Below are positions 11,101-63,100 of a stretch of DNA of 64,000 nt, in pieces. Within the stretch, counting starts at the first letter, position 1. The number at the start of each line of letters is the position of its first letter. The stretch comes from Glandiceps talaboti (lineage: Eukaryota; Hemichordata; Enteropneusta; Spengelidae), in the NCBI RefSeq assembly GCF_964340395.1, contig NC_135552.1, positions 19,608,181 to 19,672,180 on the forward strand. Reading direction: 5' to 3'. A model generated the notes under the pieces. It had not been told where the DNA came from and did no database searches. It saw only the letters and a program-made list of their open reading frames with translations. Made by a program: the position numbers and the translations under genes.

Positions 11101-14100
11101 CACCTCCCACCCCGCCCCCACACACATACTGTACCCTTCAAGACATAAACTAGTTTCAGTAACAAATCGTGTCACTTTAAATCAGATGGAATATTAATAG
11201 CTTTGTTAATTTTCTAGAATCTGACAAATTTGCACTCTATCATTATCTAACTTTCAGAGGTTAGCAAGGAAATACAGAAACCAGAAATTTAAGTGTGGTG
11301 AAGATAATGATGGCTATTCTGTCAAGATGAAAATGAAGTACTATGTACAATACATGGAACATAACAAAGATGACAGCCCTCTCTACATATTTGACAGTAG
11401 CTTTGGTGAGGTAAGAACATAGAGTATTTTTGGTGAGGTAAGAACAGTAGTTTTGGTGAGGTAAGAACACACATAAGTTTTGGTGAGGTAAGAACACACA
11501 GAAGTTTTGGTGAGGTAAGAACACAGTAGTTTTGGTGAGGTAAGAACACAGTAGTTTTGGTGAGGTAAGAACACACAGTAGTTATGTTTTTATCTATATA
11601 TTCACTTTTGACTACCATGCATGTCTCTGTTTGATACAATAATACTTTGACAACGTTCTTTAGCCTCTATTTGTGTTTAAGACTTTGGCAAAATATTGTC
11701 AAGTGAAAGCTGTATTTCAATGTCAGATGTATACATATATGATTATTCACAGTATGGTATATCAGGCAAAGATGTTACTCTGGTAATTGAGCCTTCAGTT
11801 TTCTAAGATAGACACAAATTAAAACTATTGTCACAACATGTTGATACAAAAGTGATGAGCTACGAAATGGCCGTTTGTTTAAATACAGTCTCAGTAGGGA
11901 GCAGTATGCCCTCTAAGCCAATTTGACGTGACACTGACACACACAATTTCAAGTGATGCACCAAAATTTATTGTTCCCCTATCTCTTACTATGTGGTGAC
12001 TGGTGACTTCCCAGTTTTTCTCATTTTGACTCACAACAATAAAATTTGACTATCATTAGAGGGCACACTGGTAGGAAGGCTTCACACAGTTTTATTGACA
12101 GAATTCCTTGGACTTGCTGTGTACTGTTTTAGTACTTCCAATGTTTACACTATCTTGATCACAGGGTGATTACAATCACATCAACAGAGGAACTGCTATC
12201 ACCCACTTGTGCAATCTACCACATTGAAGAACATTAGATTTACATGTAGTGTGCGGCTATCTTAGTAAACTGAAGACTTGATTGCCAAGGTCCTAAGCTA
12301 GCAGTAAACCAGTACTATAATAGTGCCACCAAACAGTGATTTCAATGAGGTAAATAAATTAACTGGAGTGCCATTCATTCAAACAGCCATGGAGAAATTG
12401 CTTTTATTTGTATACTTCACAGCATCCAAAAAGAAGAAAACTTTTACGTGATTACCATATACCAAAGTATTTTGAAGACGATTTATTTAAATATGCCGGT
12501 GAGGCGAAACGACCGCCATATAAATGGTTTGTGATGGGACCAGCAAGATCAGGGACAGGAATCCACATAGACCCACTTGGTACCAGTGCATGGAATGCCT
12601 TGGTAGTCGGACATAAAAGGTAAATTTTGAATTTTATGGGAATCCACAAAGACTCATTTGGGGTACCAGTGCATGGATTCTATGGGAATCCACATATACC
12701 CACTGGGTATCAGTGAATGAAATCTATGGGAATCCACATAGATCCACTGGGTGCCATGCAGTGAATGGATTCTTTGGGAATCCACATAGATCCACTGGTG
12801 GATTCTATGGGAATCCACAAAGATCCACTGGGTGCCATGCAGTGAATGGATTCTTTGGGAATCCACATAGACCCACTGGGTACCAGTGCATCAAATGCCT
12901 AGGTAGTTGGACACAAAAGGTACATTTTGAATTCTATGGGAATCCACATAGACCCACTGAGTATAGTTTCAGTTATGCATCTCTGTGTCTCTTGCCTCGT
13001 ACAAGAGAAAATTAAAATTATGTATGTCACCACTTTACAGTAGACAATAGCGCTTGTTTTGCAATTCAGATAAGCTTCAAATAATGTTCCCATCGTGGGA
13101 ATGAGGGAGTGCATGTGCCACTGATCCTGCTTTGTGGTGTTGATTTGTTTGTTTTTCTCACCCACCATGCAGGAAAATGATATTTTCATGTTTACTGCCA
13201 AGTTTCAAGTCTGTATACCTAGCTCACAAATACTACCTTGGTATTCAACTTTTTAGAGTACCTTGTTGATTTGATGAGTTGTATGGCAGATATTGACTCC
13301 TTTTGTTGTTTGGCAACTATGAATGAATTAATCTCTAAACACCACCATCCCCTACCCCAACACTTTGCTTTGTGTCATTTGATAGTACTTGGTAGTGTGA
13401 TAGAAATTCCATCCAAACTTTGATATCATGTATTGTCTTGCCAGGTGGTGTATGTTCCCAACTCACACTCCTAAAGAATTAGTCAAACTGCGACCTGGAG
13501 AGGGCGGTCAACAGCGAGATGAAGCAGTCACATGGTTTAGAATAGTCTATCCAAGAACACAGTCTCCTTCCTGGCCAAAAGACTGTCAACCTGTGAGTGA
13601 TATTGTAAATTCTAATTTAGTCATACATCAATTCATGTAGTGTGTCTCTAACAAGATAGTTGGGAAATTTCCAATGTTAGTTTTGAATTTTGTCTGAAAT
13701 ATTGATATCATGGCTCAGATTCACTTTTCATTTATACTTACAAAAAATAAGAATAAAAAAATCATTACAGAAATGTCACCTTCATAGATGCAGAACAGTG
13801 CACATCCAATACTATTAATGCCAGTACTATTGTACAATTACCCAATAGAGACAGTATTTTAGTTTGTCTTAAAATGGCCGTATGGATGAGGAGTGGATAT
13901 TTATTTTGGATTTTTAATTTATAAAACAATTTTATCATGGCTTCCTACTTGCAAAATCAATGTGAGACAATATATGCCAAGGCTTGTTTGTAACTCAATC
14001 AATATTGGAAATAGCTAAAAAATGTGTAAAAAAGTTTGTTATTGCATATACATTAACAAAAAAATTACACAGTTATCATTCTTTTGCAATTTATTTAGTT

Positions 14101-60100: not shown

Positions 60101-63100
60101 TATCAGGGTCAACAACTAGTACATCTACTGGACCTAGTGTAGATCACACAACAGGAACTGCTCAAGGTAAGAAATGTGACATGAAGCTTGCGGTTTTTTT
60201 AGAGTTCCTTGGACCTAGTGTAGAGCACAGAACAGGAACTGCTCAAGGAACTGCATTCATGCTAATGGACAACAACAAAAAAGAAAATAAATGTACATTT
60301 ATTCATAGATTTTCTTCAGACTGACAAAATGTTTTGTTGATTATGGCAACAATTTTTGTCTTCCAAAATCATAGGATTTCCAGATTTGACACTGCATTTC
60401 ATTTTAATTTTGAAATGTTTAGTCTGTTTGAAGATGACACTTAGCCAACTGATTAATTGTATGTAAATAATTTGAAACAGATAGATTAAAGATGGAGATT
60501 GTTCTGTATTAAATTCAGATATTGGCTGACCGTACAGTATATCAATTCAGTAAAAAAATAAAATGCAAGTATATAACATGGTTCAGTCAAATATACAAGA
60601 ATGTAATGTAACTTACCAAGTCAAAGGGGGCATGATGGTATGTGAATTTGAGAAAATAACAATTAGTATTCTCAACAAAAGTTAGTTTTATCCATCAACA
60701 GAGTACTAAAATATCAGAGTCTTCCTGACCAATATTTTGACGACAGACAACCATCTTCATCTAGGAATGAGGCCATGAGCCCCTAGAAGGTCACGACCTC
60801 AATCAAAGATGGTGTAAGTGTTAGAACTGGATCCATCAGGTCTCGTAGCAATAGTAGGCTGTCAGTCATCGAAATATTGGAAGTTTTTGATATTTTATTG
60901 AACTGTTGATGGATATTAAATTTACTTTTATTGAGAATCTTACACAATGAATAAAATTATTTGAACAATAATTAATGTGTCCCGTGCATACATTGTGTAC
61001 ATCAGTTAAATTTAAACTATTAATTTTCTTTCAAAGGATACTACTTGTATGTTGAGACTTCAAGTCCAAGAATACCTGGTGAAGTTACGCAAGTTTCCAG
61101 TGAGTTGCTTAGTGCAACGTCATCAAATGGAAGATGTTTACACTTCTGGTATCACATGTATGGTGCAACAATTGGTACATTACGTGTCATGGTCCAAACT
61201 TCATCAGATAAAATTATTTGGGAATTGTCAGGAGATAATGGTGACTTTTGGAATGATGGACAAATTGCTGTTTATTCTGATGTCCAGTTTAGAGTAAGTC
61301 AATTTGGTCAAAATTATATTTGTTATAATTTATGCATGTTTTGCACACCTTTCTATTCTTGCTAAATATATTTAGGTTGAAATGATAAAAGTAAAGAGAC
61401 TTGATACCAGTTTTATTAGTGTTTCATATTATCAATCATGCATGCCAGTGATATTTATACCAGTATAAAGTCACTATCAGTGATGATATATGTACAATTA
61501 AATTCAGTTTACAGTATAATTGTACTATGTCACTAAAATTACTCACCAGTGTAAGAAATGTGCGTGTGTTTATACATATCAGTGCATATACCTTTACTCA
61601 TAGATTATGGTATTTACGAGTACAACTTTAGAGTTTGAAGTTTAATGACATCCTTCCCCATCCCTTCCCCTAACAACTTTTTTGTTCCATTTTAGATTAT
61701 TTTTGAAGGTGTGGTAGGATCGAGTTTTACAGGTGATATTGCCATTGATGACATCAGTTTCACAGAAGGTTATTGTGCAGCTAAACCATCTTATGCCCAC
61801 CCACCTACATCATCACCATCTACAATACCTAGTACATTGGGACCTGCTCCAACAAGAAGTAAGTTACCTTTGTCTAAAATGAAGCCTTTAAAAACTTATC
61901 AGAAAGTTGTGATTGAAATAACACATTTACTGCATCGAATTTGGTCAAAGATGTTTATCACCACAGCAGCTAACATATACTATACTGTATAATATTTAGA
62001 ACTATCTGCACTGATGCAGTGATCTATTAAAGTTAAAAGTAAATCTACTGATTATGAAACAGCTGTTTAGATGTACTCAAACATTTAGACAGCTGTCACA
62101 ACTAGTAGCATTGAAAGTTAGTAGAAAAACTCCAGTCAAGACCCTTTGTTTCACCCGTGATTAATCCATTTCTTTCTCTCGTTAACCATTCTAAACAAAC
62201 CAAAACCAATCAAATCAGAAATTTTACATCCCTAGCAGTTGTAACTTGTAACAATTCTGTTATAATTATTGCCACAAATGAAACATTCACAGAACTGATT
62301 GACATCAATGAAAATTACAATAATTATGTATTGTCATTTTTTGCTAGTTCCTAGCCTCATAGACTGTGATTTTGAGGGAGGAGGTGTGTGCACCTCATGG
62401 AGTCAAGCCAGTGATGATGACTTTGATTGGACATGGAGTACAGGAAGTTCACCATCACTTGATACTGGTCCCAGTGTTGACCACACTACAGGCACAGGTA
62501 TATTTTACAAATTTATGTTTATTATGTATTATGCCTTCTCTAAATCTTGTGGTAGTTTCTGCTAGCTGCATTATATAAACATATATTTTGTAAACATTTG
62601 TCTGTTAGTCTTGATACAGTAGGTGCACAAAAACATTGATATTTTAACTTTTTCCTTATAGATCAGGGTGGCTATGTGTTCATTGAAACTTCTTCTCCAA
62701 GAGTTGCCGGTGATACAGCTCGTATTCAAAGTGTAATAGTATCCAACACAGGAAGTCAATGTCTTGAATTCTGGTATCACATGTATGGCCCAGATGTGAA
62801 CACATTGAATGTGTACATCCAACAGAATGGTAATAGAGGTAGTCCTGTATGGAGTAGGAAAGGAACACATGGTGATGTCTGGCACTATGCTTATTATAAT
62901 GTACCATATCTCACTAATTTCCAGGTACACTAAGTTTAACAGTATATATCATTCTATATAATAACATTCTATATAATTAAGCTTTGTGTCTTATGGGTCA
63001 AATACTGATTGTCATATTATGTTTGTAAACAGTATACACTGTTAAATACAACTTCTCTTACATATGTCCCATTTCTAATATGCCAAATACTTTCCTGTTA

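Follow-up and report, generated by a model that had tools for sequence, protein, structure and literature searches.

The two genes modelled in this window (i.e., the whole stretch of 64,000 nucleotides that was analyzed) raise the question of why the ends of certain exons recur on the intron side of their own borders. The original prediction located such copies at five borders, exons 3 and 4 of a JMJD6 gene and exons 8, 34 and 38 of a MAM-domain gene, and ascribed them either to a mutational process linked to the donor or to copies that act as decoy donors. Our analysis found exon-end copies at all five borders. These repeats are mirage-type minisatellites, an instance of a kind that has been described before, and ordinary local tandem duplication together with tolerance at donors probably explains them.

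Both genes lie on the + strand and were modelled from open frames with AG/GT borders, hand-picked from scored candidates; weight matrices were used both for exon picking and for donor scoring. The JMJD6 model comprises 6 exons and that of the large MAM-domain gene 42, and the exon models leave aside the upstream MAM exons and a glutathione peroxidase gene. The donor and acceptor counts and the permutations were based on 48 exons, and the background rate, composition, donor scores and read-through on 44. Exon 4 of the first gene (12423-12619, + strand) matched JMJD6 in the PDB (E 2e-35); on its own it gave no Pfam match, and an exon of this gene located downstream of it matches JmjC. Exon 3, in the numbering of the original prediction (11258-11410, + strand), is an open frame with AG/GT borders, and the next exon is the one with the PDB match. 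In the second gene, 4/4 exons submitted matched PF00629. On inspection by eye exon 8 (38792-39048, + strand) has a MAM-like translation, and exon 34 (56627-56786, + strand) encodes the end of a MAM domain plus a Thr/Pro-rich linker; exon 38 (59938-60166, + strand) comes from the exon model. No match was obtained with Pfam for the stop-masked 24-33 kb region in three frames, or with the PDB for one stop-masked frame of the 6-21 kb region, and short exon queries did match in both cases. Pieces of the glutathione peroxidase gene were observed on the minus strand at 23068-24238, with a PF00255 match within 23068-23460 and a likely first exon, assigned by eye and without a Pfam match, near 24020-24238. 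Introns make up 24,709 of the 33,701 bp of the two genes in the 44-exon model. The GC content is ~36%, with a GC3 of 0.31, an intron GC of 0.34 and a CpG o/e of 0.48. A GC3 of 0.31 seems low for Branchiostoma, which is richer in GC than this DNA, so that the host may be some other invertebrate.

For each donor, a window made up of the terminal 60 bases of the exon and the first 12 of the intron was aligned with the 600 bases that follow, and the analysis was mirrored at the acceptors with the preceding 600 bases. A local score of at least 31 was reached at 5 of the 48 donors (109, 73, 68, 48 and 31), and these are the five borders named above. At the acceptors, no window reached 31 (0/48; highest score 27) within the preceding 600 bases, in agreement with the earlier impression that no array of this kind is anchored on an acceptor; among the five introns concerned, this distance spans the whole length only behind exons 8 and 34 (410 and 404 bp).

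Behind exon 3 of JMJD6, seven units of 23-27 bp occupy positions 11394-11583 (+ strand), and the first of them is made up of the donor and the 17 exon bases before it. The GAG/GTAAGA sequence is present in 7/7 units, the real donor included, with the later donors at 11438-11565, and all six intronic units carry a T where the exon has a C. By eye, divergence is greater in the first intronic unit; the other arrays have too few units for such a comparison. The array across the donor of exon 4 (12558-12964, + strand), for which TRF reported periods of 33, 44, 81 and 129, is built of an 81-bp period plus shorter derivatives. The terminal 60 bases of the exon and the intron head are matched by one later copy (local score 109), and the near-full later copy has an in-frame TAG where the exon reads TTG. 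The AAAG/GT stretch was hit twice in this array, at the real donor and at 12916, i.e., in one later copy only, and the later GTs all score 1.5 or less as donors.

In the MAM gene, the array across the donor of exon 34 (56699-57024, + strand; TRF periods 45 and 90) has three intronic units, and donors are present in all of them, at 56832, 56922 and 57016. The array across the donor of exon 8 (39022-39146, + strand; extent by eye) is old and diverged, with about three 41-bp units. Its local score of 31 is weak, being reached by 4.3% of background positions; one copy lacks the GT, and the other retains CAG/GTGGGC, with the later donor at 39131. The alignment of exon 8 with its sister exon ends inside the exon and does not reach the intron. 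Behind exon 38 there is a single 39-bp copy of the exon tail (60210-60248, + strand; 37/39 identical), located after 43 intron bases, in which the GT is lost and with which the intron head was not co-duplicated (local score 16). Hence, the description of exon ends copied in tandem, normally with their donors, applies to four borders, where the intron head is included, and does not suit exon 38, because only the exon side was copied there, once and without the GT. A sixth array, absent from the original prediction (37698-37818, + strand; 38 bp x 3.2), starts after 17 intron bases behind the donor at 37680 and is not derived from an exon. Exons of this gene are also internally duplicated (36400-37682 and 41051-42418), with 88% identity between the sister stretches 37386-37682 and 42113-42418. 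The 38-bp array was not seen beside the sister exon at 42072-42416, and therefore it is either younger than that exon duplication or has been lost there.

Other repeats were observed in the window. A 607-bp direct repeat with CT-rich parts (32666-33272 and 34831-35437; 99.8% identity, 2165 bp apart) may be either a recently duplicated stretch or the young LTR pair of some short element. Long imperfect self-palindromes with 67-74% identity, located at 13868-14189, 19492-19836, 47708-47919 and 45478-45681, are perhaps MITE-like elements. In addition, a dispersed repeat family is common to a JMJD6 intron (11775-12296) and to introns of the MAM gene (48227-48847 and 50151-50468), and GTCAAAACGTCCCCGG repeats at 8673-8803 and 9145-9235 are inverted relative to each other, ~340 bp apart.

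When the reading frame was followed beyond the real donor, a stop was met after 3, 1, 6, 4 and 52 codons (exons 3, 4, 8, 34 and 38, respectively), i.e., within 6 codons in four of the five cases, as had been claimed. The differences between exon and copy, counted with one chosen copy per exon in four of the five cases (exon 8 was left out), fall 2, 4 and 11 times at codon positions 1, 2 and 3 (P = 0.008 for at least 11/17 at random). Such a third-position excess is what constraint on the exon unit would produce; it is no proof that the copies are coding, because this constraint alone predicts it equally. The in-phase reading at exon 34 had suggested a coding use of the intronic copies, which was rejected since a stop intervenes. 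An assembly error is unlikely for the diverged copies (55/61 for exon 4 and 49/57 for exon 34), an argument that does not cover the near-identical units of exon 3.

The tests of a donor preference are all post hoc, because the pattern was first noticed in the same window, and therefore their outcome is suggestive only. The cut-off of 31 is the score of exon 8 and was chosen after exon 8 had been seen, so the results at a score of 40 are given beside it. Among the 6172 grid positions of the window that are not of low complexity, 4.3% have a downstream copy at a score of 31, and thus 2.1 of the 48 donors would be expected to have one, compared with the 5 observed (P = 0.056). At a score of 40 the background is 3.2%, with 1.5 donors expected and 4 observed (P = 0.066). 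The comparison of donors with acceptors (5/48 versus 0/48) gave a Fisher P of 0.056 (two-sided; 0.028 one-sided), and with four donors, i.e., without exon 8 or at a score of 40, of 0.12 (0.059 one-sided). For the permutations, an automatic list of 14 clusters was used, which remained after 147 of 193 self-matches had been dropped as low complexity, and the exon 8 array, entered manually, brought the total to 15. Tandem duplications abound in this DNA, and the two gene models do not include 9 of the 14 automatic clusters within their spans. Window-wide, 5 of the 15 arrays are on donors versus 1.64 expected (P = 0.017), or 4 of 14 without exon 8 (P = 0.057); within the two genes, donors carry 5 of 6 arrays (P = 0.0035), and 4 of 5 if exon 8 is omitted (P = 0.020). 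The absence of arrays on acceptors, where ~1.4-1.6 would be expected, has a P of 0.13-0.19. A TRF-only list, hand-merged from 96 rows to 14 arrays (period of about 20 or more, score of about 60 or more), has 2 of 14 on donors versus 1.52 expected (P = 0.46); exon 4 counts as no overlap in this list, because its TRF array starts past the donor. The donor preference in the window is thus suggestive but marginal, and its P varies from 0.0035 to 0.46 with the list of arrays used.

Tandem repeats that span exon-intron boundaries are described in lancelets as 'mirages', with Adh3 and the globins as examples (PMC3087553). The loci cited also include BflGb9, retinol dehydrogenase, presenilin and troponin C (PMC3087553, PMC3902484), and similar repeats are reported for lancelet PGBD5 (PMC3902484). 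The published unit sizes are 10-72 bp for Adh3 and 150-160 bp for the globins. As in lancelets, short minisatellite-like repeats span the boundary here (in four of the five cases with intron-head sequence), and splice signals are found in many but not all units. The host genes, however, are not the lancelet ones, and all five cases here are at donors, whereas lancelet mirages are said in PMC3087553 to affect both 5′ and 3′ boundaries, with an array at the acceptor of BflGb6; the process is therefore not exclusive to donors where it has been studied. According to the same source, the data on the globin and Adh3 repeats suggest that regular splicing proceeds undisturbed. A catalogue of tandem repeats at exon-intron boundaries also exists for human segmental duplications, where they may be retained or spliced out (PMC2812944). 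The human internal repeats resemble the present ones in that they are minisatellites with units of ~30 bp on average, some of them on exon-intron boundaries; they differ in being variable, in lying in segmental duplications and in that some create new introns, as reported in PMC2812944, and no sign of a new intron was seen here. No further case of boundary mirages beyond lancelets and the human study was found in the open-license literature, a few papers of which were covered in detail, and a search directed at other invertebrates led only to the lancelet globin paper (PMC3087553); the excerpts available of the chicken MUC2 and sea bream myostatin-2 papers deal with mucin repeats and intronic minisatellites and mention no donor-spanning array. 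Intron gain by tandem genomic duplication likewise involves a local tandem duplication that copies donor-like sequence, but the arrays described here occupy only the head of each intron. An intron gained in this way would have an acceptor flank that resembles its donor flank, and at a score of 31 none of the 48 acceptor windows gave a match within the 600 bases searched, which of the five introns concerned cover only those behind exons 8 and 34 completely. Potato RdRp is reportedly a case of such a gain. In the Rogers model, as cited in PMC3087553, introns are gained by tandem genomic duplication with AGGT.

We consider it probable that the arrays arose by ordinary local duplication and were tolerated at the donors. 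Slippage or end-joining, followed by unequal exchange, would generate the repeats, and the first unit would happen to span the exon end. If the duplication extends across the 5′ splice site, the original exon and its donor would remain upstream of all the copies. As summarized in PMC6783452, the first of two tandem donors is predominantly used when both have the consensus, and acceptors show no order preference, a rule that derives from designed reporter libraries and not from this animal. With the first donor preferred at equal strength, the mRNA would therefore be unchanged, and the copies would become plain intron. The exonic unit would then stay under coding constraint, and the intronic units would be free to drift, homogenize, shorten and sometimes lose the GT. 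For a duplication that spans an acceptor, no order rule would shield the mRNA, so that it would be purged more often. The window fits this scheme in three respects: no later copy outscores the real donor in four of the five cases, the exon-copy differences fall mainly on third codon positions, and donors have disappeared from the exon 38 copy, from one of two exon 8 copies and from all exon 4 copies but one. The copies themselves, where they lie, the missing GT in some of them and the third-position excess are direct observations, and from them we infer how the duplications arose, how the transcripts are spliced and that copies at acceptors are purged. Several observations count against such a filter. 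Of the in-gene arrays, 5/6 are on donors (4/5 without exon 8) and only one is intronic; given that arrays are frequent outside genes and that introns make up most of the gene length, this concentration is not explained by the filter alone and leaves room for the donor-linked process of the original prediction. The published acceptor mirages show that acceptor copies can survive, the later donor of exon 8 outscores the real one, and the copies behind exons 3 and 34 all retain the donor.

The concentration on donors could be a matter of chance, if minisatellites are common here and some of them land on donors, since ~1.5-2 donor overlaps would be expected anyway, the two-sided Fisher P for donors versus acceptors is 0.056 (0.12 at a score of 40) and the TRF-only list is close to expectation (2/14 versus 1.52). 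In the lists with an exonic first copy, however, arrays fall on donors 2.5-3 times as often as expected and never on acceptors, and we regard chance as an unlikely explanation. A similarly low probability is assigned to a process tied to the donor, in which R-loops, U1 or splicing intermediates, or polymerase pausing would seed the tandem duplications. It would account for the fact that five of the six in-gene arrays span a donor and the sixth begins 17 bases past one, for the result of the permutation restricted to the genes (P = 0.0035; 0.020 when exon 8 is omitted) and for the scarcity of arrays in the intron interior of both genes, yet not outside genes, where they are frequent. The numbers are small and post hoc, though, and P rises to 0.46 for the TRF-only list and lies at 0.017-0.057 when the whole window is considered; lancelet mirages occur at acceptors too, as reported in PMC3087553, and no mechanistic signature was seen. 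Furthermore, a tolerance filter on splicing would explain the absence of acceptor arrays without any donor-linked mutation. The stronger proposal, that donors are preferred birthplaces of minisatellites in a non-lancelet animal via transcription- or splicing-coupled duplication and that many introns grow by copying the upstream exon end, seems quite improbable.

It was also suggested that the copies act as decoy donors, and more generally they might be retained for a benefit in splicing or its regulation, as extra U1 sites, decoy donors or poison extensions. The six intronic copies behind exon 3 all retain GAG/GTAAGA and the three behind exon 34 all retain the donor, and the early stops on read-through in four of the five cases would fit such a role. 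On the other hand, the copy behind exon 38 and one of those behind exon 8 have lost the GT, and only one later copy of exon 4 retains the donor stretch, so that conservation of decoy donors was rejected as a general rule; donor strings are conserved at exons 3 and 34, and homogenization also yields identical copies. A rescue of weak donors was discarded as well, because the five donors, taken together, do not score low (6.2, 3.8, 3.2, 8.8 and 6.3; the average over 44 donors is 5.3). With the same weight matrix, later copies never outscore the real donor in four of the five cases, the exception being exon 8, where a later donor scores 6.4 and the real one 3.2. Retention for a splicing benefit thus appears highly improbable.

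Under local duplication with tolerance at donors, the donor-spanning repeats would be tolerated duplications that provide spare splice sites and material from which new exons or introns could arise. Should a genome prove to have many of them at donors and few at acceptors, this ratio would gauge how strongly the order rules of splicing filter structural mutations. If the host is not a lancelet, mirages would reach another lineage, and their distribution would be wider than the literature that we found reports.
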